A DNA stretch of 64,000 nucleotides from Aquibacillus rhizosphaerae (GTDB lineage: Bacteria > Bacillota > Bacilli > Bacillales > Amphibacillaceae): the NCBI RefSeq assembly GCF_030282825.1, contig NZ_JASTZU010000063.1:124001-188000 (forward strand), given 5' to 3'. Positions 5,640 to 27,985 of this stretch are shown one piece after another. Position numbers and translations under genes: made by a program. Within the stretch, counting starts at the first letter, position 1. Every line of letters begins with the position of its first letter. The notes under the pieces were generated by a model that did no database searches, was not told the DNA's origin, and saw nothing but the letters and a program-made list of their open reading frames with translations.

Positions 5640-5706
5640 TTCGAAGACCCCTCCTAGGCTATGACCTAATTACTACCTAGTTTATGCAGTGGGCTATTTA
5701 GTGTGA

Positions 5707-5916: not shown

Positions 5917-5926
5917 ACTTTCCACC

Positions 5927-6145
5927 TCACATTCCGGTAACTATTTGATCAAATTTATCTCTATCGTAAACGTTTGATTTCGATTGGTTCAAGTTAATTC
6001 TGATGCCATCACCGGTATTAAACGAACCGCCTCCTGCGAACGTTTTGGCTGTCGCATATGGACTCATTGCATAAACGTCACCAATGTTAAATATACTTGA
6101 TGAACTTATCGTAATAACTTTTACAGCTCCTACAACTGCGGGCAT
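5927..6145 (-). CDS. gerPA: Spore germination protein GerPA
   Basis: The first gene of the operon encodes 72 residues beginning MPAVVGAVKVITISSSSIFNIGD and including GGGSFNTGDG, as in GerPA. The ATG at 6145 has a near-perfect AAGGAGGAAT ribosome-binding site. A longer frame from a TTG at 6211 reads through the promoter and lacks such a site. GerPA, with the other five products, alters the spore coat so that nutrients reach the germinant receptors. Confidence 0.92.
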   Translation of the reverse strand: MPAVVGAVKVITISSSSIFNIGDVYAMSPYATAKTFAGGGSFNTGDGIRINLNQSKSNVYDRDKFDQIVTGM

Positions 6146-6166
6146 GACGATTCCTCCTTCTAGAAT

Positions 6167-6194
6167 TAGTTTATGAGCATTAATAATTTCTGTT
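6167..6194 (-). promoter_or_regulatory. Candidate sigma-K promoter of the gerP operon
   Basis: On the minus strand CATAAACTA is an exact match to the sigma-K -10 consensus CATAnnnTA. AACA, fitting the short -35 element, lies 15 bases before it. The gerP operon of B. subtilis is transcribed late in the mother cell, so the factor is right. The predicted transcript would start very close to the ribosome-binding site, which is unusual but possible. Confidence 0.5.
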
Positions 6195-6268
6195 AAATAT
6201 TTTTCTATCAATATCTCTAATTATTGGTACAATGAAGGAAAAGTGCAATTGTTGAAAGGGGAATAATA

Positions 6269-9277: not shown

Positions 9278-9643
9278 ATGGTACACTTACATATTACGGC
9301 ATGGGTTTTAGCGTTAATCTTATTTTTTGTAGCGAGAATGTTTTATAAAAAAGGGAATAAAGCAGGTAAAATTCTTCATATGATTCTAAGGTTAGATTAT
9401 TTGTTGATTCTATACTCAGGCGGCTCTTTATTTACGGAGTATCTTGGTACTAGTTTTATACCTGAAGTAATTGTAAAAAGTTTAGCAGGTATTTGGGTAA
9501 TTGCTTCATTAGAAATGATATTAGTTAAAATGACAAAAGACAAACCAACAAAAAGCTTTTGGATTCAACTGGCAATATCTTTAGTTCTAGTATTAGTATT
9601 AGGATTTGGGCGATTACCAGGTGGACTGTTACCAATGAGCTAA
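9278..9643 (+). CDS. yisL: YisL family (UPF0344) membrane protein
   Basis: The 121-residue protein starts MVHLHITAWVLALILFFVA and has four predicted membrane helices, with LHMILRLDYLLILYSGG between the first and second, as in B. subtilis YisL. An AGGAGGAG site precedes the ATG. Its place between gerP and an asnO-like gene matches B. subtilis gene order. The function is unknown. Confidence 0.88.
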   Translation: MVHLHITAWVLALILFFVARMFYKKGNKAGKILHMILRLDYLLILYSGGSLFTEYLGTSFIPEVIVKSLAGIWVIASLEMILVKMTKDKPTKSFWIQLAISLVLVLVLGFGRLPGGLLPMS

Positions 9644-9941: not shown

Positions 9942-10059
9942 CGTTAGCAATATATAATTTTTTAGAAAACAATATCATATCATTGCTTTCACACTCTAGG
10001 CACTTTTGTCATATATATGTACAGTGACGAACAAGTTAGGAAAGGGTGTTGATTATAAT

Positions 10060-11907
10060 ATGTGTGGTATTACAGGTTGGATTGATTTTAAGCGAGATTT
10101 ATCTCAGGAAATAGATAACGTAAGGAAAATGGCAAATGCAATTCAACATCGAGGGCCGGATCAGCATAATGAATGGATTTCTGATCATGTGGCCTTTGGA
10201 CATCAACGCCTTATCGTTGTCGATCCAGATGGTGGAAAGCAACCAATGGAGTGTAAAAAAAACGACTCAAACTATGTTCTCGTTTATAATGGCGAGCTAT
10301 ACAATACAGAAGACATTAGAAAATCACTACTTAATAAGGGTTGGATATTTAATTCCCATTCGGATACGGAAGTGTTATTAAAAAGCTATATCGAATGGGG
10401 AGGAGCGTGTGTTGATAAATTGAATGGTATTTTTGCCTTTAGTATATGGGATGCTAAGAATGAACAATTATTTTTAGCAAGGGATCGCTTAGGTGTGAAG
10501 CCTTTATTTTATACAGAAAAAGATGGTGGACTTCTTTTTGCATCGGAGCTAAAGGGGTTAATCGCACATGATGAAATTGAGCCGATATTAGATCAAGAAG
10601 GCCTTAGTGAAATTCTAGCTTTAGGGCCATCACGTACACCGGGTCATGGTGTGTTTAAAGGTGTTAATGAATTGCGTGCAGGTCATATTGGTATTTTTGA
10701 TAAGAATGGTTTCCGTACAAAACGATATTGGAATGTTACGAGTACAGCACATACGGATGATGTCGAAGAAACAGCTGATACCATCCGATATCTATTAACG
10801 GATGCTGTTGAACGTCAATTAATATCTGATGTCCCTTTAGGTACTTTTTTATCAGGAGGAGTAGATTCAAGTGCGATTACTGCTATCGCATCGAATTATT
10901 TAAAGAGACATAAAAAGGATCAACTGAAAACATTTTCGATTGATTATGAGGACAACGATAAGTACTTTGAAAAAAGTGATTTCCAACCGAATAGTGATCA
11001 GGATTTTATTGGAACTGTCGTAGAAGCGCATAATACCGAACACCATAATTTTGTAATTGATAATAAAAAGTTAGCTGATATGCTGAAAGAGGCTGTAGAA
11101 CTACGAGATCTACCTGGGATGGCAGATGTCGATTCTTCCTTGCTGTGGTTTTGTAGACAAACAAAAGAGGAAGTAACAGTAGCCTTGTCTGGAGAGTGTG
11201 CGGATGAAATTTTTGGAGGATACCCTTGGTTTTACCGAGAAGAAGATTTAAAACGGGAAGGATTCCCTTGGATTCGTTCAGCTGATGTGAGAAAATCATT
11301 ATTAAATGATGAATGGCAAAAAAAATTAAATTTACGAGATTATATGCTCAAAAGATATCAAGAAACAATTGATGAAACTCCTGAATTTGAAGGGGATAGT
11401 GAGATGGAAAGACATCGTAGGAAAATGTTTTATTTGAATATGCATTGGTTTATGCCAACATTATTAGATCGAAAAGATCGTATGAGTATGGGTGCTAGCT
11501 TTGAAGCGCGCGTGCCGTTCAGTGATCACCGACTTGTTGAATATGTGTGGAATGTTCCATGGGAGATGAAAACATATAAAGGCAGAGAAAAAGGTATTCT
11601 AAGAAAAGCGTTAGAAGGGTTATTACCTGATGAAATTTTATATAGAAAGAAAAGCCCCTATCCAAAGACGCATAATCCTGAATATAAAAATGCTGTAATT
11701 GAATGGGTAAATGAAATCTTAGATGATCCAAGAGCGCGTCTTTTTGAAATTTTTGATAAAGACGCAGTTCGCAAGTTAGTCGAAACAGAAGGAAAAGAAA
11801 TAGAAGCACCATGGTTTGGTCAATTAATGACAGGACCACAATTACTTGCTCATTTAGGTCAAATCGATCATTGGCTCAGAAAATATGATATTATAATTGA
11901 ACATTAA
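10060..11907 (+). CDS. asnO: Glutamine-hydrolysing asparagine synthetase (AsnO/AsnB type)
   Basis: The enzyme makes asparagine from aspartate, ATP and glutamine. The ATG at 10060 is required because the next codon is the catalytic Cys2 of the class II glutaminase domain (MCGITGW); a longer frame from 10006 would bury it. RGPDQHNEW, YNGELYN and SDTEVLL mark the glutaminase half. SGGVDSSA is the ATP pyrophosphatase loop of the synthetase half, and FGGYPWFYREED follows. The 615-residue length and the position after yisL suit the sporulation-linked AsnO of B. subtilis rather than AsnB or AsnH, but paralogue assignment is an inference. AAAGGGTG is the ribosome-binding site. Confidence 0.9.
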   Translation: MCGITGWIDFKRDLSQEIDNVRKMANAIQHRGPDQHNEWISDHVAFGHQRLIVVDPDGGKQPMECKKNDSNYVLVYNGELYNTEDIRKSLLNKGWIFNSHSDTEVLLKSYIEWGGACVDKLNGIFAFSIWDAKNEQLFLARDRLGVKPLFYTEKDGGLLFASELKGLIAHDEIEPILDQEGLSEILALGPSRTPGHGVFKGVNELRAGHIGIFDKNGFRTKRYWNVTSTAHTDDVEETADTIRYLLTDAVERQLISDVPLGTFLSGGVDSSAITAIASNYLKRHKKDQLKTFSIDYEDNDKYFEKSDFQPNSDQDFIGTVVEAHNTEHHNFVIDNKKLADMLKEAVELRDLPGMADVDSSLLWFCRQTKEEVTVALSGECADEIFGGYPWFYREEDLKREGFPWIRSADVRKSLLNDEWQKKLNLRDYMLKRYQETIDETPEFEGDSEMERHRRKMFYLNMHWFMPTLLDRKDRMSMGASFEARVPFSDHRLVEYVWNVPWEMKTYKGREKGILRKALEGLLPDEILYRKKSPYPKTHNPEYKNAVIEWVNEILDDPRARLFEIFDKDAVRKLVETEGKEIEAPWFGQLMTGPQLLAHLGQIDHWLRKYDIIIEH

Positions 11908-11913
11908 CTTTTT

Positions 11914-11950
11914 AGCGTGTGATTTTCTAGTGAAAATCACACGCTTTTAA
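11914..11950 (+). terminator. Rho-independent terminator after asnO
   Basis: AGCGTGTGATTTT pairs with AAAATCACACGCT around a short loop and is followed by TTTT. Confidence 0.85.
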
Positions 11951-12020
11951 TGGTAAGCTTTTATTAAGTTAATAATAGAAACGAAGCTCATATTAAAGGT
12001 ATTCTTTTTGGAGGATTAAA

Positions 12021-13484
12021 ATGAAAAAAAATATAACGTTGATTTTAAGTTTATTGGTATTTTTAGGACTTACCACAAGTGTGTATGCAGATGAGGATAG
12101 TAATTGGAAGGATGAAACAGTTTATTACATATTAGTTGATCGATTTGTTAACGGAGATTCGGAAAACGACTATAACATAGATATTAATGATGCGAGTTCT
12201 TTTCATGGTGGAGATATCCAAGGGATTATAAATAGATTGGATTATATCAAGGAACTTGGATTTACTACCATTAATTTAAGTCCAATCATGAGTAATGACC
12301 CAAAAGGTTACCACGGATTTTTAATTGATGATTTTCAGAAAATAAATGAACAGTTTGGAACGATGGAGGATGTGCGTGAGTTAGTGCGTCAGGCACGTGA
12401 TCGAGATCTGAAGGTGATCTTAGATTTCGTCGTTACGCATGTTAGTGAAGAGCATAGCTGGCTAACTTCGAATCCAACTTGGATAGAGGATAATAAAGAC
12501 TTAATCTGGGGTGATGCTTTACCAACTCCAGCATTGGACAAACCGGTGGTAAGTGATTACTTTATGGAGTCAGCTTCTTATTGGATTAATCAAACAGATG
12601 TAGATGGATACCGGTTGTATATTGATTCATCAACACCAAATCAATTTATCAGTGATTTTGCTACATACATCAAATCACAAGATTCTAATTTAATTGTGTT
12701 CACGGACACAAGTGATCAGATGGTGATTGATCATGCAGTAGCTTCTAACGAAATGGTTATAAATCATGAGGTAAGTCAAGTGATGTCAACAGTTTTCAGT
12801 AAGTCAGGTAATTCACTAGAACCTTTAGTTGAGTTCTGGGACGGCCAAAATAATCAGCGGGGTTTGTATATGGATAGTCTTGTGACTCCGAGGTTTACAA
12901 GGGAAGCCGTTAAGCAAGGTGAAAATCCTTTGACTAGATGGAAGTTAGCTTTAACTTATCTTTATACGATTCCTGGAACACCAATTATTTACCAAGGTTC
13001 AGAAACTACGATGGACAATGGAATGGACGCGCCTGACCATCGGATGGCACAGCTTAATAGTGGCGATGAAGAATTGAAAAACTACATGGAACAGTTGGCA
13101 GCTATCCGTAAACAATTTCCTGCCATAACAAAAGGAGATATAGAGTTAGTTGAAAATAACGATGGAATGACTATGTTTAAGCGAACTTTTGAAGGTGAGA
13201 CCATTTATGTTGCAATAAATAATGATACAGAAACAAAAACGATAACACTAAGTGATGTTCCGGAAGGCATGCAACTTACAGGTCTACTGCAGGATAATAT
13301 TGTTAGAAAACAACAGGATGGGGTATTCAAAATAGCGCTGGAGCGAGAAACTGCTGATATATTTATGATAGAAGAAGATACAGGTATTAATTGGCTATTC
13401 GTTTCCTTTGTTGTACTAGTGTTGGGTGGATTTGTCACTAGTGTAGTGATTCTAAGTAGAAAGTCCAAAAAGCAAGAAAAATAA
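12021..13484 (+). CDS. Surface-anchored alpha-amylase homologue lacking catalytic residues (GH13 pseudoenzyme)
   Basis: The 487-residue product has a signal peptide (residues 1-23, cut near VYADE), a GH13 TIM-barrel fold (WKDETVYYILVDRFVNGD, SFHGGDIQGI, QFGTMEDV) and a C-terminal membrane helix followed by RKSKKQEK. The protein should therefore face outward on the membrane. The fold is well preserved but the catalytic machinery is not. The region II nucleophile position reads GYRLY with Tyr200, and the region III acid/base site reads FTD with Asp229. The region IV NHD triplet is replaced by SLV (286-288), and region I has Thr139 where Asn is usual. It probably binds rather than cleaves glucans. 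The frame is intact with a GGAGG site. Confidence 0.8.
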   Translation: MKKNITLILSLLVFLGLTTSVYADEDSNWKDETVYYILVDRFVNGDSENDYNIDINDASSFHGGDIQGIINRLDYIKELGFTTINLSPIMSNDPKGYHGFLIDDFQKINEQFGTMEDVRELVRQARDRDLKVILDFVVTHVSEEHSWLTSNPTWIEDNKDLIWGDALPTPALDKPVVSDYFMESASYWINQTDVDGYRLYIDSSTPNQFISDFATYIKSQDSNLIVFTDTSDQMVIDHAVASNEMVINHEVSQVMSTVFSKSGNSLEPLVEFWDGQNNQRGLYMDSLVTPRFTREAVKQGENPLTRWKLALTYLYTIPGTPIIYQGSETTMDNGMDAPDHRMAQLNSGDEELKNYMEQLAAIRKQFPAITKGDIELVENNDGMTMFKRTFEGETIYVAINNDTETKTITLSDVPEGMQLTGLLQDNIVRKQQDGVFKIALERETADIFMIEEDTGINWLFVSFVVLVLGGFVTSVVILSRKSKKQEK

Positions 13485-13541
13485 TTGTTAGACAAGAAGC
13501 TATACAATCAGTATTGTTGCTTTTGAGAAGGGGTGGGTAGT

Positions 13542-15608
13542 TTGGATTTTCCTTTAAGTGATCCGGTTCTTATTTTTGGATTGACAGTTATTATTTTTCT
13601 TGTTTTTCCACTAATGATGAAAAAATTCCGTTTGCCAGCAATCATTGGACCGATTATTGCGGGAATTATTGTAGGTCCAAATGGATTACACATATTACAA
13701 CGTGGAAGTACGATTGAATTGTTAGGAACAGTAGGGTTACTATTTATTATTTTTATTGCTGGTCTGGAACTAGATATGGAAGGTTTTAAAAAGTACCGCA
13801 ATCGAAGTCTTTTATTTGGCCTACTATCGTTTAACATCCCATTGGTTATTGGTACTGTAATCGGTTTAAGTTTAGGCTTTAGTTGGGCTGCCTCTATTTT
13901 GATTGGTTCAATTATTGGTTCGCATACTTTATTAGGCTATCCTATAGCTAGTAGGTTAGGCGTTTCAAAAAATAAGGCAGTCACGACTGCTATTGGAGGA
14001 ACACTTGTTACCGATACCCTGGCTATGTTGGTTCTAGCTGTCATAACAGGTACTTCTGAAGGGGAAGTGAATTTTAGTTTTTGGTTAAAATTAATTGTAT
14101 CAACACTAATTTTTACAATTGTAATATTATTCGGAACTCCATTATTGTCTAAATGGTTCTTTAAAAATTCAAATAACGATGGCACCTTTGAATTTAATTA
14201 TGTCCTAGTAATTTTGTTTACCTCAGGAGCTTTAGCTCTTTTTGCTGGACTGCAACCAATTATTGGAGCCTTTTTGGCGGGGTTATCCTTGAACCGGTAT
14301 ATAATTGACCATGGTCCTTTAATGAACAGGCTAAGGTTTTCTGCAAATGCTCTATTCATTCCATTTTTCCTTTTATCTGTAGGTATGCTGATGGATTTAA
14401 GAGTGCTTATTTCCAATCCAAGTGCATGGATAGTTACCTTGTTAATTTTAATTTCAGTTGTTTTTGGAAAAGCATTTTCAGGTTGGATTACAAGTAAAAT
14501 ATATAATTATTCAAGTACAGAAAATAAGCTTGTTTTTGGACTTTCCATTTCGCAAGCTGCTGCTACGTTAGCGTCCACATTAGTAGGTTATGAGATTGGT
14601 TTGTTAAATCAGGAAACAGTTAATGCTGTAATTGTAATGATACTAGTAACTTGTGTTCTGGGTCCATATTTCACGGAAAAGTACGCTAGGAAACTTGCTG
14701 TACAAGGAAACCTTGAGTCTAAAAAAGTTGAAAAAAAACCGGAGCGGATTCTTATTCCATTAGCAAATCCAAATACAATGGAGTCATTATTGGATCTTGG
14801 ATTTATAATTAGAAAAGCAAAGGGAACCGAAGAACCCATATATCCTCTTACAGTTGTTCCAAAAGCAATAAAAAAGGCTGATAGACAAGTTGCTGAAGCG
14901 GAGAAAATGTTGGGGCATACGGTTATGTATGCATCTGGAGCTGAAGTCCCAATTCGCTTGTTAACACGCGTCGATGAAAATATTGGTAGAGGACTAGAAA
15001 GAGCTGTAATAGAAGAAAGAATAACAACTACAATCGTTGGTTGGAATGGGAAGAAATCAGTTAGTCAAAAACTATTTGGTGGTATAATAGATAATTTTTT
15101 AGACCATACAAATCAGCGAATTATAGTCGCGAAATTAGTTAATCCATTAAACACAACGGATCGCATTATATTAGTTCTTCCAAAATATATAATTAGCAAG
15201 CCGGGATTTCATAATGCATTAGCTATCATTAAAGGGATTGCTATTCAATTAAGTGCTAGTATTCATTGTGTAATTATAAAAAATTCAATAGAAGAATATA
15301 GAGATGTTTACGAGAAAGTAAAACCTTCCGTTAAAACAGACTTTTTTCAGATAAACACAATTGACTCTTTATTTTCTGATTATATGGGTAAGGTTAGGAA
15401 AGATGATTTAATTATAATAATGAGTGCTAGGAAAGGTACAATTGCTTGGAAACCAGAATTAGAAGTTCTACCTGGTAAGCTAACTGAATTAACATCAAGT
15501 AGTTACTTGGTCTTTTATCCCTCCGAAAGTGATGAGATTGATGTCCGGGGTACAAGGGGAACTGAATTACCTAAAGAAGTATTATTCAAGAAAGACTATA
15601 ACGATTAA
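13542..15608 (+). CDS. CPA2-family cation:proton antiporter with C-terminal UspA-like region
   Basis: About twelve membrane helices (residues 5-385) carry Na+/H+ exchanger features, including RLPAIIGPIIAGIIVGP near the start and FIAGLELDMEGF. A cytoplasmic tail of roughly 290 residues follows, with universal-stress-protein-like segments (TRVDENIGRGLERAVIEERITTTIVGWNG). Such proteins exchange Na+ or K+ for protons. No RCK/TrkA-N domain is seen, so it is not a standard KefB/C. The TTG at 13542 is preferred because AAGGGGTGG lies just upstream; a GTG at 13533 would sit inside that site. The exported cation cannot be told from sequence. Confidence 0.82.
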   Translation: MDFPLSDPVLIFGLTVIIFLVFPLMMKKFRLPAIIGPIIAGIIVGPNGLHILQRGSTIELLGTVGLLFIIFIAGLELDMEGFKKYRNRSLLFGLLSFNIPLVIGTVIGLSLGFSWAASILIGSIIGSHTLLGYPIASRLGVSKNKAVTTAIGGTLVTDTLAMLVLAVITGTSEGEVNFSFWLKLIVSTLIFTIVILFGTPLLSKWFFKNSNNDGTFEFNYVLVILFTSGALALFAGLQPIIGAFLAGLSLNRYIIDHGPLMNRLRFSANALFIPFFLLSVGMLMDLRVLISNPSAWIVTLLILISVVFGKAFSGWITSKIYNYSSTENKLVFGLSISQAAATLASTLVGYEIGLLNQETVNAVIVMILVTCVLGPYFTEKYARKLAVQGNLESKKVEKKPERILIPLANPNTMESLLDLGFIIRKAKGTEEPIYPLTVVPKAIKKADRQVAEAEKMLGHTVMYASGAEVPIRLLTRVDENIGRGLERAVIEERITTTIVGWNGKKSVSQKLFGGIIDNFLDHTNQRIIVAKLVNPLNTTDRIILVLPKYIISKPGFHNALAIIKGIAIQLSASIHCVIIKNSIEEYRDVYEKVKPSVKTDFFQINTIDSLFSDYMGKVRKDDLIIIMSARKGTIAWKPELEVLPGKLTELTSSSYLVFYPSESDEIDVRGTRGTELPKEVLFKKDYND

Positions 15609-15657: not shown

Positions 15658-17016
15658 TTAGACTGTAGATTTTTCCTTTTTAACAAAGGCTTTTCGTATC
15701 CATACTTTGGATCTCCACCTGTGTAACATAATGATGCCACGTAACCATTCGTCAGCGATAAATCCAATCCAAACACCGATAAGTCCTAGGTCTAGTACAA
15801 TTCCAAAAAACCAAGCGAATGTTACACTTACACCCCACATCGATAAAATACCCACAAACACAGGGAATTTTACATCCCCAGTAGCTCGTAAACAATTTAT
15901 CACCACTAGATTAAAGGCTCGACCAGGCTCCAATATAATTGTAACCAGTAGAAGCAAAGCGCCTTTTTCAATTATGGTTGTATCCTCTGTAAAAATACCT
16001 AACAAAAAGTCGCTTGAAAAGTAGACTATAACAGCAGCAACAGTACTTATTATAATAGATATTTGTAGACTTTTTATACACCGTTTATAGGCTTTCTCTA
16101 CTTCACCAGCACCTATCATGTGACCAATTAGTATTTGAGAACCCTGGCCAATAGCGATTGAAAACAGAAGAATAAACATCATAATGTTTTGTACATAGAC
16201 TTTTGTTGTTAAAGCAACAGTGCCAAGCTGAGCGATAAAATACGTTATGACCATTTGGCTACCGTTATAGGAAAGCTGTTCTCCAGCTGAAGGAACTCCA
16301 ATACCTAGCAAATCTTTAACGTGTTCTTTTTTGTATTTAAAGAACGAAGTGAATGGTAATTGTTTATTACTTCTTTTTATTAAAATGAGAAGTAGGGCAA
16401 CGAAACCTAGAAATCTACTAATCATGGTTGAGTAAGCTACTCCTTCAACACCAAGAATCGGAAATCCAAAGGGGCCAAAGATAACAAAATAATTTCCCAC
16501 AACATTTACAATATTCATGGCAATCGTTACATACATCGTATCTTTGGTAAATCCATAACTTCTTAAAATAGCAGCTACGGTCATGATTAGAGCTTGAACA
16601 AAGATGAATCCACCTACAATTGCCATATATGTGTTTGCTTCTCCCATTATTTCATTTGGAAGGTCCATCATGACAAGAATATTTTCGCTGAATAGGTATA
16701 AGCCAATGCTCAAGAACAATGAAAACCACAGATTAAGACTGATAGAAGTTACAGCTATCCTCCCAGCGGTTGTTGGTTGATTAGCCCCAAGGTTTTGAGC
16801 AACAAGAATTGATGCGCCAGCTGCGACAAATCCAAACATGACGATTATAACAGAGATAATTTGATTGGCTACACCAACAGCAGCTACTGCATGATCGGAA
16901 TATTGGCTTAACATAAGTGTATCAGCATTCCCCATCAACATATGAAGCATTATTTCAATAAATATTGGCCAAGTTAATGCAAATAGAGTTAACTTTTGTT
17001 GTTTTGACTCTCCCAT
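15658..17016 (-). CDS. MATE family efflux transporter
   Basis: The 452-residue protein has twelve membrane segments in two similar halves, as in multidrug and toxic-compound extrusion exporters. Typical MATE sequences are present near the N-terminus: WPIFIEIMLHMLMGNADTLML, then AVGVANQI and ASILVAQNLGA. It would export organic cations or drugs using a Na+ or H+ gradient; the substrate is unknown. The ATG follows AGGAGGAGAA. It lies downstream of the maltodextrin enzyme genes on the same strand with about an 80-base gap, and probably is not functionally tied to them. Confidence 0.88.
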   Translation of the reverse strand: MGESKQQKLTLFALTWPIFIEIMLHMLMGNADTLMLSQYSDHAVAAVGVANQIISVIIVMFGFVAAGASILVAQNLGANQPTTAGRIAVTSISLNLWFSLFLSIGLYLFSENILVMMDLPNEIMGEANTYMAIVGGFIFVQALIMTVAAILRSYGFTKDTMYVTIAMNIVNVVGNYFVIFGPFGFPILGVEGVAYSTMISRFLGFVALLLILIKRSNKQLPFTSFFKYKKEHVKDLLGIGVPSAGEQLSYNGSQMVITYFIAQLGTVALTTKVYVQNIMMFILLFSIAIGQGSQILIGHMIGAGEVEKAYKRCIKSLQISIIISTVAAVIVYFSSDFLLGIFTEDTTIIEKGALLLLVTIILEPGRAFNLVVINCLRATGDVKFPVFVGILSMWGVSVTFAWFFGIVLDLGLIGVWIGFIADEWLRGIIMLHRWRSKVWIRKAFVKKEKSTV

Positions 17017-17096: not shown

Positions 17097-18776
17097 TTAT
17101 TTGCTAAAGTAGTAAACACGTGTTTCATACGGTTGAAGTGAGATATCTTCTAATTCATCTGTTGCTTCATAATTACTTATTAATAATTTATGAGTACGAT
17201 ATAACTTTACATCTATAGGTGTAGAAAAGGCAACTTGTTTTTCTGTGAAATTACTAATAATCAAAAGCTTTTCACTACCTAGCTGACGTGTATAAGCAAA
17301 GATATCTTGATTGTCTTCTAATAGTAAGTCATATGCGCCGTACACAATAATGTCATATTTCTTTCGGAGTTGAATCAATTGTTTGTAATAGTGAAAAATG
17401 GAATTAGAATCCTGGATAGCTTGTTTGACATTAATATCAGTATAATTCGGGTTTACTTGAATCCATGGTTCCCCCTCGGTAAAACCAGCGTTTGTTGTAG
17501 TATCCCATTGCATCGGTGTTCGTGCATTATCCCTAGATTTAATATGGATAGCTTGCATAATTTTATCCACAGGCCAACCTTCTGTAACTTTTTCTTTATA
17601 TGCGTTTAGTGTTTCGATATCTCTGTACTTACTGATAGTTGAAAAACGAACATTAGTCATCCCAATTTCCTCACCTTGATAAATATAAGGAGTACCTTTC
17701 ATCATATGCAAGGTAGTAGCTAGCATTTTTGCTGATTTATTCCTATATTCATCATCATGACCAAATCTCGACACAACACGGGGTTGGTCATGATTATTCC
17801 AATATAAACTATTCCATCCATCATGCTCCAATTTATATTGCCATTTAGATAATATTTCTTTTAATGTGATGAGTGACCATGGTTTTACATCCCATTTCCC
17901 TCCAAAACCCGAGTCGATGTCCATGTGCTCGAAATGAAATACCATATTTAATTCATCACGTCTTTCGCCAGTATAAAGTACAGCTTCCTCAGGTGTTGCA
18001 CCGGGCATTTCTCCTACTGTCATGACGTCGTACTTCGATAATACGTTTTTATTCATTTCTTGTAAGTAATCATGGATTTTAGGACCATTCATAAAGTATT
18101 TTGCCCCCGAAACATACTTTTTCCCTTCAGGGTTTTCTCCATCTGGAAAATTAGTATCCTTGGAGATAAAGTTAATAACATCCATTCGTAAACCATCAAC
18201 GCCTTTATCTAACCACCATGTAATCATAGAATAAATTTCTTTTCGTAAAGTAGTGTTTTCCCAATTCAAATCAGGCTGTTTTTTAGAAAAAAGATGAAGG
18301 AAATAGTCATCTGTTTCTTTATTATATTGCCAAGCAGAACCACTAAAAGCTGATTCCCAATTATTAGGTTCGTAACCATCTTTGCCAGGGCGCCAGATAT
18401 AATAATCGCGATAGGCGTTTTCTTTTGATTTTCTTGATTCCACAAACCATGAATGCTCATCAGAAGAATGATTGATGACTAAGTCCATCATCAATTTCAT
18501 GTCACGACGATGTATTTCTTTTAAAAGTTGATTCCAATCTGCCATTGTTCCAAACTCAGCCATAATTGCCTGATAATTACTAATGTCATAGCCATTATCA
18601 TCATTCGGAGATTCGTAGACTGGTGAAAGCCAGATTACATCAATACCTAGGTCTTTTAAATAATCAAGCTTTTCTATAATTCCAAGAATATCACCAATAC
18701 CATCATTGTTACTATCATTGAAACTACGTGGGTAGATTTGATAAACAACACTTTCTTTCCACCATGCTTTATTCAT
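17097..18776 (-). CDS. malL: Oligo-1,6-glucosidase (GH13 subfamily 31)
   Basis: This intracellular GH13 enzyme has 559 residues and hydrolyses alpha-1,6-linked glucose ends of isomaltose and maltodextrins. All catalytic positions are present: Asp199 in GLRMDV, Glu256 in VGEMPGA and Asp330 in NNHDQPR. Val200 directly after the nucleophile is the residue associated with alpha-1,6 rather than alpha-1,4 specificity in this subfamily, and the numbering agrees with Bacillus oligo-1,6-glucosidase. The ATG at 18776 has TTAGGAGGAT upstream; a longer frame lacks support. Nineteen bases separate it from the upstream maltogenic amylase gene, so they form one operon, controlled from the divergent promoter region near 20.6 kb. 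Confidence 0.92.
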   Translation of the reverse strand: MNKAWWKESVVYQIYPRSFNDSNNDGIGDILGIIEKLDYLKDLGIDVIWLSPVYESPNDDNGYDISNYQAIMAEFGTMADWNQLLKEIHRRDMKLMMDLVINHSSDEHSWFVESRKSKENAYRDYYIWRPGKDGYEPNNWESAFSGSAWQYNKETDDYFLHLFSKKQPDLNWENTTLRKEIYSMITWWLDKGVDGLRMDVINFISKDTNFPDGENPEGKKYVSGAKYFMNGPKIHDYLQEMNKNVLSKYDVMTVGEMPGATPEEAVLYTGERRDELNMVFHFEHMDIDSGFGGKWDVKPWSLITLKEILSKWQYKLEHDGWNSLYWNNHDQPRVVSRFGHDDEYRNKSAKMLATTLHMMKGTPYIYQGEEIGMTNVRFSTISKYRDIETLNAYKEKVTEGWPVDKIMQAIHIKSRDNARTPMQWDTTTNAGFTEGEPWIQVNPNYTDINVKQAIQDSNSIFHYYKQLIQLRKKYDIIVYGAYDLLLEDNQDIFAYTRQLGSEKLLIISNFTEKQVAFSTPIDVKLYRTHKLLISNYEATDELEDISLQPYETRVYYFSK

Positions 18777-18795
18777 TCTATGTATCCTCCTAATT

Positions 18796-20622
<1,827 letters not shown>

Positions 20623-20866: not shown

Positions 20867-22168
20867 ATGAAAAAATGGTTGGGAACACTACTTGGTTTAA
20901 TTTTAATTATAGGTCTTTTGGCTGCTTGTGGTCCAGAAGAATCTGAACCGACAGATACAGAAAGCGGAACAGAGACAGACACAGATGGAAATGATAGTGG
21001 CGGAGAAGCTGAAATGCCAGAAAAGCCTGAAAAATTAACCGTATGGGTAAATGCTGAAGAGAAACAAGAAGAGGCGGTTACGCAAATTACTGATAAATAT
21101 ACAGAAGAAACAGGTATTGCGGTAGAATTAATTCCGATTAACATGTTAGATCAGGTCGAAAAATTAGATGTTGAGGGTCCTGCTGGAAATGGACCGGACG
21201 TCATTTTCCAACCACACGACCGGGTTGGAGATTTAGCGATGCGTGGTTTAGTTGACGCTGTTGACTTAGGTGATAGTGAATCACAATATACACAAACTGC
21301 ATTAGACGCTTTTACTATTGAGGGTAAATATTATGCTGCACCAGCGGTAACAGAAACATACGCATTGATGTACAACAAAGCTCTTATTGATGAAGCACCA
21401 GCAACAATGGAAGAATTAATGACAATTGCAGAAGAGGATACAAATACTGGAGAAGATAAATTTGGATTCTTAATGGAAGCAGCAAACTTCTATTTTACTT
21501 ATCCTTTTTATATTGATAGAGGCGCGTATATTTTTGCAAATGAAAATGGCAACTATGATATAAATGATATAGGTTTAAATAACGAAGGCGCTGTTGAAGC
21601 AGGGAAAATGATTCAGTCGTGGTTCGAAAACGGATACATTCCACAGGATTTAACTCCAGACATAATGAATGGTTTATTTAAAGAAGGAAAAGTGACTGCC
21701 GTTATTAATGGACCATGGATGGTCAGAGAGTACCAAGATGCGTTAGGTGATGATTTAGGAGTTGCAACACTTCCAGTAAATGAAGATGGAGACCCGCAAC
21801 CATCAGCTGTTGGCGTAAAGGGTTATTTACTCTCTTATTACTCTGAAAACAAAGAGTGGGCTACAGATTTGATGACTTATATTACGAATGCTGAAAATTC
21901 AATGTTATATTATGATGTTGCTGGTGAAATTCCTGCACATATTGAAGCAGCTTCAGATCCTGCTATTGCAGATGACCCAATTTATCAACCATTTGCTGAA
22001 CAAGCTAGTTATGGTCAAGCGATGCCGGGTGTTCCAGCAGTTCAACAAATTTGGGATCCAATTAATGAAGCAGCAACATTTTTCTCAAAAGGTGAACCCG
22101 TAGAAGAAGTATTAGATGAAGCTGTTCAACAAATTTCTGACAATATTGCAGCGTCTGGTGCTCAATAA
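20867..22168 (+). CDS. malE: Maltodextrin-binding lipoprotein of an ABC importer (MalE/MdxE)
   Basis: The 433-residue product has a lipoprotein signal ending LLAACG, so the mature protein is lipid-anchored at the Cys near residue 22. An acidic, Thr/Glu-rich linker follows, then a family-1 solute-binding fold (LTVWVNAEEKQEEAV, NGPDVIFQPHDRVGDLA, TAVINGPWMV). It captures maltodextrins and delivers them to MalFG. GGGAGG precedes the ATG. A hairpin after the gene probably tunes expression relative to the permeases, which are needed in smaller amounts. The acidic composition of the mature protein fits a salt-tolerant organism. Confidence 0.92.
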   Translation: MKKWLGTLLGLILIIGLLAACGPEESEPTDTESGTETDTDGNDSGGEAEMPEKPEKLTVWVNAEEKQEEAVTQITDKYTEETGIAVELIPINMLDQVEKLDVEGPAGNGPDVIFQPHDRVGDLAMRGLVDAVDLGDSESQYTQTALDAFTIEGKYYAAPAVTETYALMYNKALIDEAPATMEELMTIAEEDTNTGEDKFGFLMEAANFYFTYPFYIDRGAYIFANENGNYDINDIGLNNEGAVEAGKMIQSWFENGYIPQDLTPDIMNGLFKEGKVTAVINGPWMVREYQDALGDDLGVATLPVNEDGDPQPSAVGVKGYLLSYYSENKEWATDLMTYITNAENSMLYYDVAGEIPAHIEAASDPAIADDPIYQPFAEQASYGQAMPGVPAVQQIWDPINEAATFFSKGEPVEEVLDEAVQQISDNIAASGAQ

Positions 22169-22179
22169 ATAATTAATAA

Positions 22180-22220
22180 AATGATATATGGAAAGTGATA
22201 AACTTTCCATATATCATTTT
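22180..22220 (+). terminator. Intercistronic hairpin between malE and malF
   Basis: AATGATATATGGAAAGT pairs with ACTTTCCATATATCATT and is followed by TTTTCT. It probably acts as a partial terminator or a 3' stabiliser of the malE message. Confidence 0.75.
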
Positions 22221-22247
22221 CTATCTATATAAGAGGAGGAACAAAAA

Positions 22248-23546
22248 ATGGCTTCATCAAATGATAGTAGTAAATATAGTTTGAAACGCCCTAGAAATCT
22301 AGCTACTTTATTATCCATTATTGTTCCAGGTCTAGGTCAGATGTACAATAGACGCTTTTTAAAAGGAATATTTCTTTTTATTATTGCCACATCTTTCCTA
22401 ATAACTACTTGGGACTTTTTAGATATTGGTATCTGGGGATTGTTTACACTTGGAACAATCCCTAGAGAACATCATTCTGTACAACTGCTAATTCAAGGTT
22501 TAATTTCTGTTATCGTGTTGTTATTTGGTATAGCGATTTATCTATTCAATATAAAAGATGCGAGAAGCGATGCGGTAGCGAAAGAGAATGGAAAGCCGAA
22601 TCCAGGTCTTTTAAAAGGCTTTACTAATTTTTATAATGATGGTTTTCCTTATTTCATGATTTTACCTGGATTAATTATGTTAATTTTTATCGTAGTATTA
22701 CCTCTGGCATTTATGATTGGTATAGCTTTTACTGATTATACCCAATACAACGCACCTCCTAGAAATTTATTGAGTTGGGTTGGATTTGATAATTTCATAG
22801 ATTTATTTAGCTTAGATATTTGGAAAAATACTTTTATTAATGTATTTACTTGGACTATTGTTTGGACAGTTGTTGCAACAACCTTGCAAATTGTTCTTGG
22901 TTTATTTTTAGCTCTGTTGGTAAATGACAAGCGAATCAAGTTTAAAAGGACTATTCGTACCGTACTTATACTACCTTGGGCTGTACCGGCATTTGTTTCG
23001 ATACTAATTTTTTCAGCATTATTTAATCCAACCTTTGGTGCAATAAATCGAGATATTCTGAGTCAATTTAATTTGATTATTCCTTGGTTGTCAGATCCAT
23101 TTTGGGCAAAAGTTGCAATTATTATGATTCAAACATGGCTTGGATTCCCATTTGTTTTTGCTCTATTTACAGGTGTTTTGCAAAGTGTACCAGCAGACAT
23201 GTACGAAGCAGCTGATGTAGATGGAGGTACAAGGTGGCAAAAGTTAAAATTTATTACAATGCCACATCTTCTATTTGCGACAGCACCATTATTAATTATG
23301 CAATACGCTCAGAATTTCAATAACTTTAACATTATTTATCTATTTAATGAAGGTGACCCAGCAGTTAGGGGACAAAATGCTGGTGGAACTGATATTTTAA
23401 TTTCATGGGTTTATAAGCTTACTTTTGAAACGAACAACTATAATATGGCTGCCGCAATTACGATAATTATGGGGTTAATGATATCTATATTTGCTTTCTT
23501 CCAATTCCGTAAAACCGCAGCATTTAAAGAGGAGGGGCGTTACTAA
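22248..23546 (+). CDS. malF: Maltodextrin ABC transporter permease (MalF/MdxF)
   Basis: The 432-residue permease has an extra N-terminal module with membrane helices (residues about 15-105) before the core domain, as in Bacillus MdxF. The coupling-loop EAA motif is present as EAADVDGGTRWQKLKFITMP. Together with MalG it forms the membrane channel for maltodextrins. AGAGGAGG precedes the ATG. Its TAA overlaps the ATG of malG (TAATG). No ATPase gene is present; these importers usually borrow a shared MsmX-type ATPase encoded elsewhere. Confidence 0.92.
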   Translation: MASSNDSSKYSLKRPRNLATLLSIIVPGLGQMYNRRFLKGIFLFIIATSFLITTWDFLDIGIWGLFTLGTIPREHHSVQLLIQGLISVIVLLFGIAIYLFNIKDARSDAVAKENGKPNPGLLKGFTNFYNDGFPYFMILPGLIMLIFIVVLPLAFMIGIAFTDYTQYNAPPRNLLSWVGFDNFIDLFSLDIWKNTFINVFTWTIVWTVVATTLQIVLGLFLALLVNDKRIKFKRTIRTVLILPWAVPAFVSILIFSALFNPTFGAINRDILSQFNLIIPWLSDPFWAKVAIIMIQTWLGFPFVFALFTGVLQSVPADMYEAADVDGGTRWQKLKFITMPHLLFATAPLLIMQYAQNFNNFNIIYLFNEGDPAVRGQNAGGTDILISWVYKLTFETNNYNMAAAITIIMGLMISIFAFFQFRKTAAFKEEGRY

Positions 23547-24394
23547 TGGCGATGAAACAAAAAACAAAATCAAAAATAGAAGTAACGTTCATATATTTAT
23601 TTTTCTTATTAATGTTTATCGTTATTGCTTATCCTTTGTTATGGACAGTAATGATGAGTATAAATCCTGGATCTAATATGTTAGTAACACAATTGTTTCC
23701 TAAGAATCCCACATTAGAACATTACAAATGGTTATTTACAAGTCCTAATAGTGATTACTTAACTTGGTATAAAAATAGTTTAGGTGTAGCAATTGCTAAC
23801 TCGTTAGGTTCAATTGTACTTACTTCATTAATAGCTTATGCGTTCTCAAGATTCAAATTTGTAGGTAGAAAATATGGTTTATATATGTTTTTATTACTGC
23901 AAATGTTTCCGGTATTAATGGGAATGGTCGCATTATACATTTTACTAACGACAATTGGTTTGAATGATTCTTTAGTGGGTTTAACCCTAATTTACCTTGG
24001 TGGACAGATTCCATTTAATGCATGGCTAGTTAAAGGTTATCTAGATACGATTCCTAAGGAACTTGATGAAGCTGCAAAAATTGATGGTGCAGGCCATTTG
24101 CGAATCTTTTGGACGATTATACTTCCACTTGCAAAACCTATTCTAGCTGTTGTTGCATTATTCAATTTCATGGCACCATTTATGGACTTTTTGTTACCAA
24201 AGATTGTTTTAACTAGTCCAGAGAAATATACGCTAGCTCTTGGATTATATAACTTTATAAATGATCAGTTCTCGACAAACTTTACACAGTTTGCTGCAGG
24301 TTCAATTTTAATTGCAGTACCAATAGCACTTGTGTTTCTACTATTACAAAAATACTTGATAGGTGGTTTGACAGCGGGTGCAACAAAAGGTTAA
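23546..24394 (+). CDS. malG: Maltodextrin ABC transporter permease (MalG/MdxG)
   Basis: This 282-residue permease has six membrane helices and the EAA loop EAAKIDGAGHLRIFWTIILP. The end, LQKYLIGGLTAGATKG, is typical of MalG. It starts within the malF stop codon, so translation is coupled, with GAGGAGGGG upstream. It completes the importer encoded by malE-malF-malG. Confidence 0.93.
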   Translation: MAMKQKTKSKIEVTFIYLFFLLMFIVIAYPLLWTVMMSINPGSNMLVTQLFPKNPTLEHYKWLFTSPNSDYLTWYKNSLGVAIANSLGSIVLTSLIAYAFSRFKFVGRKYGLYMFLLLQMFPVLMGMVALYILLTTIGLNDSLVGLTLIYLGGQIPFNAWLVKGYLDTIPKELDEAAKIDGAGHLRIFWTIILPLAKPILAVVALFNFMAPFMDFLLPKIVLTSPEKYTLALGLYNFINDQFSTNFTQFAAGSILIAVPIALVFLLLQKYLIGGLTAGATKG

Positions 24395-24405
24395 GTAAGT
24401 CAAGG

Positions 24406-24452
24406 AGAAACAAAGGCATTAGTAACATATTAGTGACTATTCTTTTGTTTCT
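24406..24452 (+). other. Hairpin between malG and the GH31 gene
   Basis: AGAAACAAA and TTTGTTTCT pair across a 29-base loop just after malG. No T tract follows, so it is more likely an RNA processing or stability element than a terminator. Confidence 0.35.
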
Positions 24453-24512
24453 GTTCATATCCTACTTATTATTAAGTGTCCATAGTGAAATAGCGAATAG
24501 GAGGAAGAGTGA

Positions 24513-26873
24513 ATGTTAGAAGATACTAGTTTTGCCATCCATCCTGGAAAAAAGCAGGTTATGGATGAACAAGCGTATATTGATATCGGAAGGTTACAAA
24601 GTGTTGAGCAAAAACATGACTATTTTTTGTTCCATTGCGAAAAGGGTAGTGTGACGATTGCTTTTTATCGTGATGATATAGTTCGGATAACTATGCAAAC
24701 TAGTAATCAAACAACAACCTACCCGTCAAGGGCAGTGGTTGTGAAACCAAATCATGTTAATCTTACTTATTCTGAAACTGATGATAAAGTAAAGCTTAAT
24801 TCAAAGAAATTAACCATTGAAGCTAAGAAAAGTCCTTTTCGGATTAAGATTGTAGACTGTAATAATAATTTATTAGTTGAAGAGGGAAAATATGGTATGG
24901 GTTTAAAGGAAAATGGAGAAGTGATTTGTTTTAAAGAAATGGATGAAAACAATCACTTTTATGGCTTTGGTGAGAAAACAGGGTTTCTTGATAAACGAGG
25001 TGAGCGTTATCAAATGTGGAATTCGGATGTTTATGCACCACATAATCCGGAAACCGATCCTTTGTATGAATCAATCCCATATTTTATGACACTTCGTGAT
25101 GGATTAGCACACGGAATCTTCTTTGATAATTCATACCGAACTACATTTGATATGAAGTCACTTCAAGATCAATACTCATTTAAGGCTGAAGGTGGTCAAC
25201 TGGATTATTACGTTTTTGCCGGTCCTACGCCAAAAGATGTTGTAGAACAATATAGTTATCTTACAGGTAGAATGCCGATTCCTCCAAAGTGGTCACTGGG
25301 CTATCATCAATCCAGGTATAGTTACGAAACAGAAGCTGAAGTACGAGAGTTAGTTAAAATGTTCATTGAAAAAGAAATCCCTGTCGATGCTATTTATCTT
25401 GATATCCACTATATGGATGAATATCGCGTATTCACATTCGACAAAGACCGATTCCCAAATCCAAAAAAACTAATAGATGATTTAATAGAACTAGGAATTA
25501 GAATTGTTCCTATCGTTGATCCAGGTGTGAAAAAGGATCCGGAATATTCGATATACAAAGAAGGCATACTAGCAAATCACTTTTGTAAGTATATAGAGGG
25601 AAACCATTATTTTGGAGAAGTTTGGCCTGGCATTAGTGCTTTTCCAGATTTCACGGATGAAAAGGTGAGAAGCTGGTGGGGAGATAAGCATAAATTTTAT
25701 AGTGATTTAGGAATAGAAGGTATTTGGAATGATATGAATGAACCAGCTGTATTTAATGAAACAAAAACGATGGACATAGATGTAATTCATCGAAATGATG
25801 GTAGTCCAGATACCCATCGAGCACTTCATAATATATATGGATTAATGATGGGCCAAGCGACATATGATGGAATGAAGAGTCTTTTAAACGGTAAACGTCC
25901 ATTTCTATTGACTAGAGCTGGGTATTCTGGTGTGCAACGCTACGCATCCGTTTGGACAGGAGACAACCGAAGTTTTTGGGAGCATTTGCAAATGTCGTTA
26001 CCGATGTGTATGAATTTAGGATTATCAGGTATTCCATTTACTGGTCCTGACGTTGGTGGATTTGCCCATGATACAAATGCGGAGTTACTTACTCGATGGA
26101 CGCAAGTTGGGGCATTCATGCCATATTTTAGAAATCATTCAGCAATAGGAACTGTTTATCAGGAACCGTGGCAGTTTGGCGAAAAGTATGAGCAAATCAT
26201 GAAGAAGTATATTCAATTACGTTATAAATGGATGCCCCAGTTATATTCATTATTCTATATAGCTAGTAGTCAAGGCCTTCCAGTCATGCGGCCACTTATG
26301 ATGGAATTTCCGTTTGATGTCAAAACATATAATCTCAATGACCAATTTATGATTGGAGATAATGTTGTCATTGCTCCTATTATGAATCCCGGAATTACAG
26401 ATCGTGCAGTTTATTTGCCTGAAGGGGATTGGGTTGATTATGAAACCAATCAAACGTATCATGGCAGTCAAACGCACTTGATTCATGCTAATCTCGATCA
26501 ACTTCCGATTTTTATTAAGAATGGTACAGCTATTACTCATGGTAAAGTTGTATCTTCACTAAAAGAGAAACAAGAAGAACTGATTCTTCATGTATACACC
26601 CATGATAAAGACAGTAATTATATCCACACATTTTATGAAGATGATGGTGAAACTTTCAGTTATGAAAATCAAGAATATTTGTATTTAATGTTTGAAATTA
26701 TTAATACATCCAAGTATGTGGAAATAAATCTTATAAAACATACAGGGAATTATCCATTACCTTCAAATAAAATGAAGTTGGACCTGCATAATTTACAAGA
26801 GAAAAGTGTTTTCGTGAACAAGAAAAAGATTGAAAATCTGACTGAAGGTGTATTTATTTCTCTAGTAGATTAG
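24513..26873 (+). CDS. Family 31 alpha-glucosidase
   Basis: The 786-residue enzyme contains the GH31 nucleophile motif GIWNDMNEPAVF with Asp407. An N-terminal beta-sandwich includes HFYGFGEKTG, the barrel start is PIPPKWSLGYHQSRYSY, and the acid/base region is WTGDNRSFWEHLQMS. It removes glucose from non-reducing ends of maltodextrins taken up by the importer. It lacks a signal peptide and so acts in the cytoplasm. AGGAGGAAG precedes the ATG. It lies between malG and malR and probably is transcribed with them. Confidence 0.93.
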   Translation: MLEDTSFAIHPGKKQVMDEQAYIDIGRLQSVEQKHDYFLFHCEKGSVTIAFYRDDIVRITMQTSNQTTTYPSRAVVVKPNHVNLTYSETDDKVKLNSKKLTIEAKKSPFRIKIVDCNNNLLVEEGKYGMGLKENGEVICFKEMDENNHFYGFGEKTGFLDKRGERYQMWNSDVYAPHNPETDPLYESIPYFMTLRDGLAHGIFFDNSYRTTFDMKSLQDQYSFKAEGGQLDYYVFAGPTPKDVVEQYSYLTGRMPIPPKWSLGYHQSRYSYETEAEVRELVKMFIEKEIPVDAIYLDIHYMDEYRVFTFDKDRFPNPKKLIDDLIELGIRIVPIVDPGVKKDPEYSIYKEGILANHFCKYIEGNHYFGEVWPGISAFPDFTDEKVRSWWGDKHKFYSDLGIEGIWNDMNEPAVFNETKTMDIDVIHRNDGSPDTHRALHNIYGLMMGQATYDGMKSLLNGKRPFLLTRAGYSGVQRYASVWTGDNRSFWEHLQMSLPMCMNLGLSGIPFTGPDVGGFAHDTNAELLTRWTQVGAFMPYFRNHSAIGTVYQEPWQFGEKYEQIMKKYIQLRYKWMPQLYSLFYIASSQGLPVMRPLMMEFPFDVKTYNLNDQFMIGDNVVIAPIMNPGITDRAVYLPEGDWVDYETNQTYHGSQTHLIHANLDQLPIFIKNGTAITHGKVVSSLKEKQEELILHVYTHDKDSNYIHTFYEDDGETFSYENQEYLYLMFEIINTSKYVEINLIKHTGNYPLPSNKMKLDLHNLQEKSVFVNKKKIENLTEGVFISLVD

Positions 26874-26947
26874 CTTATAATATATTTGGTAGGCTTGTAA
26901 ACTTTACCAGTTGAAAGCATCTAACAATTAATCAAAGGGTGAAAACG

Positions 26948-27985
26948 ATGGCAGTTACAATCAAAGATGTAGCTAGGATAGCAGGTGTTGCTCCTTCTAC
27001 TGTTTCTAGAGTTATTGCCGATAATTCGCGCATTAGTTTAGAAACTAAAAAAAGAGTTCGTAAAGCGATGAAGGAATTAGGGTACCATCCTAATGTGAAT
27101 GCTAGAAATTTAGCAATTCGATCTACACAAGCTATTGGAGTGGTTATGCCCTCATCTGCTGATAAAGCATTGCAAAACCCATTTTTTCCTGAGGTTTTGC
27201 GAGGTATTGGTTCTGTCGCCCATGAAATGGAATATTCGTTATATGTTTCAACTGGTGGAACAGAGCAGGAATTATTTGAGGAAATAAAACGGATGGTTCA
27301 TGGTAATCGAGTGGATGGAATTATCCTACTTTATTCTCGGATGAATGATGTAGTTGTTGACTTTTTATTGGAAAGAAAATTTCCATTTGTTGTAGTAGGT
27401 AAACCGTATGATCAGGAAAATGAAATTACTTATGTGGATAATGATAATTTCAAGGCTAGTAAGGAGATAACTGAACATTTAATTGAACTTGGTCATAAAA
27501 ATATAGCATTTATTGGGGGTTCGACAGATTTAGTTGTTACTGTCGATAGAATGTCTGGCTATGAATCTGCAATAAAGCAAGCTGGATTGCCAAGTCCTGA
27601 TGAGTATAAAATTCACACTGAATTTTTGAAATCGGGTGGTAGAGAAGCGGTTGAACATTTATTTTCTTTGGAAAACCCACCAACGGGGTTAGTTATTGCT
27701 GATGACCTAATGAGTTTAGGTGTTATTACAATGTTGGAAGAGTTTGGGTTAAATGTTCCTCGTGATGTATCTATAACAAGTTTTAATAATGTTTACTTAT
27801 CAGAAATTACTAGGCCACCACTTACGACCGTAGACATACAAATTTATGAACTAGGTGTCCATGCTTCTAGATGTCTAATTGAAAAAGTGAAAAATAAAGA
27901 AGAGTTAGCAAAGCGGGTAATCATTCCGTATAAAATTAAATATAGACAATCAACAAATAAAAGAGAAGAAGTTACGAAAAAATAG
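26948..27985 (+). CDS. malR: LacI family regulator, predicted maltodextrin repressor MalR
   Basis: The protein has an N-terminal LacI helix-turn-helix (TIKDVARIAGVAPSTVSRVI) with hinge ARNLA, then a periplasmic-binding-like sugar domain (GVVMPSS, VDGIILLYSR, FIGGSTDLVVTVDR, TSFNNVYLSEITRPPLTTV). Length is 345 residues from the ATG at 26948, which has AAAGGG eight bases upstream; a GTG nine bases earlier is too close to that site. Its place at the end of the maltodextrin locus and the two LacI-type operators near 20.6-20.8 kb make it the likely local repressor. Confidence 0.85.
   Translation: MAVTIKDVARIAGVAPSTVSRVIADNSRISLETKKRVRKAMKELGYHPNVNARNLAIRSTQAIGVVMPSSADKALQNPFFPEVLRGIGSVAHEMEYSLYVSTGGTEQELFEEIKRMVHGNRVDGIILLYSRMNDVVVDFLLERKFPFVVVGKPYDQENEITYVDNDNFKASKEITEHLIELGHKNIAFIGGSTDLVVTVDRMSGYESAIKQAGLPSPDEYKIHTEFLKSGGREAVEHLFSLENPPTGLVIADDLMSLGVITMLEEFGLNVPRDVSITSFNNVYLSEITRPPLTTVDIQIYELGVHASRCLIEKVKNKEELAKRVIIPYKIKYRQSTNKREEVTKK

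Follow-up and report, generated by a model that had tools for sequence, protein, structure and literature searches.

A membrane-anchored pseudo-amylase of the GH13_45 lineage, probably kept for a catalysis-independent function

The closest described relatives of the protein analyzed here are the GH13_45 α-amylases, such as BaqA, GTA, and ASKA/ADTA, which resemble it in fold, domain order, signal peptide, and C-terminal membrane helix. In many relatives, these enzymes also share their chromosomal neighborhood with triad-lost copies, that is, copies in which at least one of the three catalytic triad residues is replaced. Unlike the GH13_45 amylases, our protein lacks the catalytic acids, the LPD motif, and the NHD motif, and its gene lies outside the mal operon. 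Catalytically odd GH13_45 proteins are already known, because Sarian et al. (2017; PMC5347038) listed seven relatives (Nos 28-34) in which all of the triad is substituted, with no obvious pattern. The subfamily member BmaN1 has an aberrant triad and was reported to be active on starch (PMC5347038 and PMC11448133). BmaN1 and the groups of Sarian et al. are like our protein in being GH13_45 relatives with a substituted triad, but BmaN1 keeps the acid/base Glu and an Asp beside the nucleophile site. Gene context, a selection test, and a noncatalytic proposal were not found in the available part of PMC5347038, and among the matches listed in a literature search, no paper connected triad loss with the loss of the mal operon. 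Taken as an analogy only, the nearest known kind of GH13-like, membrane-anchored, non-enzymatic protein would be the SLC3 heavy subunits 4F2hc and rBAT, which combine a single-helix anchor with an α-amylase-family ectodomain; 4F2hc lacks the whole triad, and SLC3 function lies mainly in transporter stability and trafficking (PMC8537225). Unlike our protein, the SLC3 subunits have an N-terminal anchor and a covalently linked SLC7 partner and belong to vertebrates.

The protein encoded in the window (the whole 64,000-nucleotide stretch of Aquibacillus rhizosphaerae DNA analyzed; Table 1) matched PF00128 with 145 bits against a cut-off of 22 and also matched PF22026, the α-amylase C-terminal domain. 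The closest solved structures by sequence were the Anoxybacillus α-amylase 5a2b/5a2a (E ~1e-108) and Geobacillus GTA 4e2o, and those closest by structure were 5a2c, 5a2a, and 4e2o. An AlphaFold2 model based on 46 sequences (pLDDT 88.5, pTM 0.85) superposed on Anoxybacillus amylase 5a2c with a Z score of 50.4 and 1.6 Å over 422 residues; therefore, the α-amylase fold is kept in the window protein. By Kyte-Doolittle hydropathy, the N-terminus is hydrophobic and the C-terminal helix has Lys/Arg residues after it, and the model contains a C-terminal helix at residues 458-486. The open frame, the superposition, the hydropathy, and the model helix bear out the preliminary description of an intact gene for a GH13 fold with a signal peptide and a C-terminal anchor.

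Table 1. Coordinates of the pseudo-amylase gene, its parts, and its neighbors in the window.
Feature	Position	Strand	Basis
yisL-like gene (DUF1516; we take yisL to be its name), frequent neighbor	9278..9643	+	
Asparagine synthase gene (asnO), frequent neighbor	10006..11907	+	
Perfect 14-bp hairpin with 4-nt loop, then TTTT; terminator-like, between asnO and the pseudo-amylase gene	11914..11945	+	By eye
Ribosome-binding site GGAGG	12010..12014	+	By eye
GH13_45-lineage pseudo-amylase gene, 487 aa; intact frame from ATG 12021 to stop at 13484	12021..13484	+	ORF, Pfam, alignment, predicted structure
Signal peptide, residues 1-24 (end by eye)	12021..12092	+	Hydropathy; model helix 2-16
Codon 200, Tyr at nucleophile position	12618..12620	+	Alignment
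Codon 229, Asp at acid/base position	12705..12707	+	Alignment
Codons 286-288, SLV replacing NHD	12876..12884	+	Alignment
Domain C, residues 372-452 (PF22026 match 372-448), constraint kept in triad-lost copies	13134..13376	+	
Juxtamembrane part, membrane helix, and basic tail, residues 453-486	13377..13478	+	Hydropathy, model
CPA2-type cation/proton antiporter gene, between pseudo-amylase and MATE genes	13533-15608		
MATE gene	15658-17016		
Two GH13 genes, maltodextrin regulon	17097..20553	-	
malE/malF/malG-like, GH31, and lacI-family genes	20867..27982	+	

The terminator-like hairpin suggests that the pseudo-amylase gene is transcribed separately from asnO; it is absent from the list of the terminator scan because the rule of that scan was five T. 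A promoter scan of positions 11850-13600 gave four sites, none of them upstream of the pseudo-amylase gene, and shuffled sequences averaged 7.1. The asparagine synthase frame is listed from a TTG codon, and an in-frame ATG at 10060 gives a Met-Cys start. Since class II amidotransferases usually start with Met-Cys, this gene likely begins at that ATG. The antiporter gene did not cluster with any gene of the other neighborhoods fetched. In 8 of 70 loci, one of them the window's, a MATE gene is found no more than two genes away from the copy; all eight are in or near the window's subclade, and in the rows shown the MATE gene lies on the strand opposite to the copy. It is no specific sign, because MATE genes also stand beside intact mal loci.

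Catalytic and pocket positions were read from an alignment of 68 relatives' rows with the window protein and 5a2b. The nucleophile Asp is replaced by Tyr200, the acid/base Glu by Asp229, and the transition-state Asp by Val288, and the NHD motif has become S286-L287-V288, so that the earlier claim that all three catalytic acids are replaced agrees with the alignment; the triad positions were confirmed, and the predicted fold matches 5a2c. The region I Asn is Thr139, and Asp135 and His140 (both region I) and Arg198 (region II) of the active site are still present. The protein thus departs from the Asp/Glu/Asp triad of active GH13 enzymes, and its PF00128 match and amylase TIM-barrel fold place it in the GH13 fold and family. 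Its nearest relatives by both sequence and structure are GH13_45 enzymes, the label for 5a2b, 5a2a, 5a2c, and 4e2o being taken from PMC11448133. The LPDlx motif in CSR-V is a GH13_45 feature (PMC11239784) that the window protein lacks, having L167-P168-T169; L, P, and D occur in all 37 intact rows, a count that leaves out the PDB row and four outgroup rows. Two adjacent Trp residues in helix α-3 are another such feature (PMC5347038 and PMC11448133), and the window protein has Y187-W188 there. This feature is weak, because W187 is found in only 24 of the 37 intact rows. The C-terminal segment of about 30 residues with about five aromatics is present as judged by aromatic count. The BmaN1-type arrangement, with Lys-Asp at the nucleophile site, Glu as acid/base, and His as stabilizer, is absent, and Y200-I201, D229, and V288 stand in its place.

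From these residues we infer that the window protein would be catalytically inactive; missing triad residues alone are not proof of this, because BmaN1 with its aberrant triad was reported to be active on starch. The protein might still be an α-glucan enzyme with an unorthodox and perhaps slow active site, as proposed for BmaN1, in which a neighboring Asp would act as nucleophile and other residues would take over the remaining roles. BmaN1 belongs to the same subfamily and was reported active with K202/D203, E231, and H294, and in the window's subclade D229 and D135 persist with D202 nearby. The window protein, however, has no acid/base Glu, no Asp at the position after the nucleophile (I201), and Val at the stabilizer site, and position 202 varies among Asp, Asn, Glu, and Leu across the 13 rows of the subclade. 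In the larger sister clade, several rows have S, T, G, or N at position 229. In addition, the copy was the sole PF00128 protein in 10 of the 18 family genomes checked, which had been picked for few GH13 matches, leaving no other such protein to use a product. We consider an unorthodox enzyme improbable.

The occurrence of triad loss was surveyed in two sets of relatives. A single-sequence search of genome contigs found no relative, but an alignment-based search did. The relatives' set came from 100 relatives searched and comprises 68 full-length rows from 67 genomes. Excluded before counting were a broken second copy (L077, in genome G007); the interrupted copies of G060, split over two frames, and of G079, with one TAG; two divergent frames without interruption, in G077 (451 aa) and G082 (466 aa), each of which was matched as two pieces; and three GH13 frames that were not orthologous. 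With the window and PDB rows left out, 17 of the 68 rows have Asp/Glu/Asp and 51 are triad-lost, all three residues being replaced in 44. The second set, the best 80 of the matches listed by the alignment-based search and nearly all from Bacillales, contains 40 intact and 40 triad-lost loci (31 of them lost at all three positions), a split that is not a census; the two sets share organisms, and their counts are not to be summed. Triad-lost genera are, in the 80-locus set, Oceanobacillus, Virgibacillus, Lentibacillus, Halobacillus, Aquibacillus, Saliterribacillus, Sediminibacillus, Paucisalibacillus, Ornithinibacillus, and Cerasibacillus, together with Neobacillus, Peribacillus, Mesobacillus, Cytobacillus, Heyndrickxia, Lederbergia, Domibacillus, and several species still named Bacillus. 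Some genera with triad-lost copies have intact ones too. This survey of the substitutions, which the preliminary description had proposed as a check, showed that open frames with substituted triads recur in dozens of relatives, and therefore the loss is more than chance. The replacing residues vary by group: Tyr or His in the window's family, Pro in Neobacillus, and Ser in the B. badius group. Four copies of the 80-locus set have lost a single residue (L130 of Peribacillus saganii, L151 of Mesobacillus maritimus, and L144 and L147 of Bacillus sp.).

Phylogenetic trees were built without the catalytic columns, and selected rows were used for the 94-row and 64-row trees. The copies of the window's family came together as a single lost group (47 rows, support 96/94), and in a larger quick tree an intact Thalassobacillus copy joins the base of this group at a poorly supported fork. 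The other lost copies lie among intact Bacillaceae copies. A single clade of all lost copies was rejected, its log-likelihood being lower by 121 (p-AU 0.00018; 36 lost and 28 intact rows). The varied replacing residues and the four single-residue losses fit repeated loss.

Gene context largely separated the intact copies from the lost ones. The gene names in the neighborhood clusters are our own assignments, made by reading. Intact genes stand mostly after malG in a malE-malF-malG-amylase-(GH31)-lacI operon, which adjoins SDR-degV-yitT in many genomes and asnO in some. Triad-lost genes mostly occupy the same place without the operon, as yisL-(asnO)-[copy]-(SDR)-degV-yitT. In the relatives' set, with the window counted as lost, malG lies within two genes upstream of 16 of 17 intact copies vs 2 of 52 lost ones; the exceptions are the triad-lost L068 and L072 inside a mal operon and the intact L058 outside one. 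Among the best 80 loci listed, two of which had no called gene order, malF or malG lies within six genes of 35 of 38 intact copies vs none of 40 lost ones. By reading, 33 of these 35 are directly after malG, and the three intact exceptions are all outside Bacillales. An independent-pairs test of triad loss against operon context found three pairs, too few to reach 0.05; locus counts thus support the operon link strongly, whereas the independent events behind it are few. Both kinds of copy, a triad-lost one at the yisL locus and an intact amylase beside mal genes, occur together in G033 (L082 and L070) and in Paucisalibacillus globulus (L134 and L152).

In the window, a mal regulon is present, with no amylase between malG and GH31, where relatives have an intact GH13_45 gene; the triad-lost copy sits between asnO and the antiporter gene, outside the operon, although the six-gene rule would class it as near mal genes. 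The nearest regulon GH13 gene (17097) is 3.6 kb downstream of the pseudo-amylase gene, and the malE-like gene is 7.4 kb downstream. The distance of about 4 kb to a maltodextrin regulon given in the preliminary description is therefore right as to nearness, but it fits an ancestral operon site rather than a present role. This bears on whether the protein is a surface α-glucan-binding protein that feeds the neighboring regulon, for which the regulon at 3.6-14.5 kb and the retention of Tyr97 and His98 in the window's subclade would speak. Tyr97 presumably stacks on the -1 sugar. Against this, proximity is explained by the ancestral operon site, and two members of the window's subclade (G030 and G040) keep the triad-lost copy without a close malF. 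The ten genomes with no other PF00128 protein count against a starch role: four of them have no MalF match and the others have only distant ones (best E 2.3e-30), compared with 1e-156 or better for MalF of operon copies. Moreover, domain B and the pocket lose the most conservation in triad-lost copies. The surface glucan binding that had been offered as an example is not supported by these results, and we regard a glucan binder as quite improbable.

The C-terminal aromatic residues of GH13_45 have been proposed to bind starch (PMC11448133). They are as frequent in lost as in intact copies, with means in 453-480 of 5.19 in intact rows and 5.62 and 5.12 in the two lost sets. Because triad-lost copies keep this segment, its reading as a starch-binding motif is questioned, and the aromatics suit a membrane or partner role better than starch binding.

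The triad-lost relatives are under purifying selection. Five distinct close triad-lost pairs gave dN/dS values of 0.047, 0.050, 0.057, 0.081, and 0.088, with dS often saturated (above 1 in four of the five); these pairs are relatives' copies, the nearest homologue of the window gene being at 58-59%. Domain identities were compared at matched divergence of the neighboring DegV protein, used as a clock, for pairs within each lost group and in five DegV identity bins from 0.5 to 0.8; YitT and HAD, as extra clocks, had too few intact pairs to rely on. Domain C identity was 0.44-0.55 in intact copies, 0.45-0.57 in the Bacillaceae lost group, and 0.41-0.55 in the window's family. The corresponding values were 0.64-0.76, 0.42-0.61, and 0.37-0.52 for the barrel and 0.67-0.80, 0.39-0.62, and 0.22-0.41 for domain B, and both of these regions are relaxed in the lost groups. 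For the membrane segment, identity was 0.34-0.55 in intact copies, 0.45-0.54 in the window's family, and 0.35-0.39 in the Bacillaceae lost group, which at closer DegV distances had 0.36-0.39 vs 0.43-0.55 in intact copies. Pairs pooled across the two lost groups at DegV 0.50-0.60 gave domain C identities of 0.36 and 0.40 vs 0.44 in intact pairs. None of 2000 label shuffles, a procedure that takes no account of kinship, reached the observed ratio of domain C to barrel identity. Dividing dN in domain C and the membrane segment by dN in the barrel and domain B gave 0.40-1.01 in the five distinct lost pairs and a median of 1.69 in 17 intact close pairs. Thus, constraint has moved from the active site to domain C and, in the window's family, to the anchor.

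These values also weigh on the idea that the gene is a decaying relic without function. Catalytic loss itself, the broken L077, the gene of G060 split over two frames, the TAG in G079, and the absence of the gene from 14 of 59 family relatives would all be expected of a relic. However, 46 of 60 family genomes, the window's included, keep a full-length frame, dN/dS is only 0.05-0.09 in relatives, and domain C constraint is close to that of intact enzymes within groups; decay is thus very improbable. L077, at positions 5232-6774 in G007, is a second pseudo-amylase copy in two overlapping frames, and an intact frame lies elsewhere in that genome. The retained non-enzymatic role first proposed for the window protein stands as far as anchored retention is concerned, given the fold, the low dN/dS, and the constraint on domain C; its glucan-binding example is not supported.

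Another explanation is a receptor or sensor whose pocket was rebuilt for another small ligand or sugar. Against this, pocket identity was low when all lost copies of each family were taken together (0.36 and 0.33 vs 0.96 in intact copies), and no dedicated signaling partner was recognized beside the gene. Individual lost subclades nevertheless have conserved sets of their own. In the window's subclade, N85, Y97, H98, D135, and H340 are conserved in 13 of 13 rows and D229 in 12 of 13, and in the H-type sister subclade (30 rows) H98-G99 and E135 are invariant, position 200 is mostly His, and pocket identity (0.59) is above the subclade's own average of 0.53. These residues and this identity indicate that the pocket may not be idle, and ligand binding by the pocket of triad-lost copies is possible; a rebuilt receptor pocket as the explanation of retention is nonetheless rather unlikely. 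A rebuilt catalytic triad in the large sister clade was also considered and rejected, because E135 is invariant there but positions 200 and 229 vary.

Two genomic correlates were set aside. Sporulation did not separate carriers from non-carriers: among the 59 family relatives, spoIIIAA exceeded the cut-off in 56, and 11 of these were among the 14 that lack the pseudo-amylase. A COX1 frame of 617-634 aa, called CtaD-like by frame length read from rows and not by a typed model, was present in 45 of 45 carriers and none of the 14 non-carriers among the 59 family relatives; nine of the latter had no COX1 match, and five had only one frame of 652-663 aa. The window's genome has a COX1 frame of 623 aa. 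Because the non-carriers form only two groups on a gyrB tree, and 12 of 14 non-carriers searched outside the family have a COX1 frame of 610-640 aa, the link is at most a family-level one with two events and is not used as evidence. A shorter COX1 frame (~555-570 aa) lies ~3.5-14 kb from the pseudo-amylase in eleven genomes (G014, G019, G020, G027, G029, G032, G038, G039, G041, G046, and G059), in some of which a SCO-like gene, named by eye, stands between the two.

We consider it probable that the window protein is a surface pseudoenzyme of the GH13_45 lineage whose retained function does not depend on catalysis; domain C and the anchor would probably serve in binding or scaffolding. The ancestral amylase may already have had a second, catalysis-independent function on the outer face of the membrane, one that depended mainly on domain C and, in the window's family at least, also on the anchor. 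Once the locus no longer held the mal operon, the gene would have been kept for this second function, and the active site would have been freed to change. The most likely action would be binding to a partner or an envelope ligand, with the protein serving as scaffold or co-receptor. More tentatively, and with the balance leaning against it, GH13_45 anchored amylases in general may have an unrecognized second function in domain C and the anchor that survives mal operon loss as a pseudoenzyme, which would be an independently evolved bacterial counterpart, in kind, to the SLC3 heavy chains. The breadth of triad loss, the operon link, the selection pattern, and the noncatalytic reading were not found among the literature matches listed and are new relative to them. 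If our interpretation is true, this lineage would provide a pseudoenzyme that is widespread in bacteria and under selection for its function. Its loss of catalysis, which happened more than once, could be compared with operon loss, and the protein could be studied beside active cousins. Many genes likely annotated as "alpha-amylase" in Oceanobacillus, Virgibacillus, Neobacillus, and their relatives may then not cut starch.
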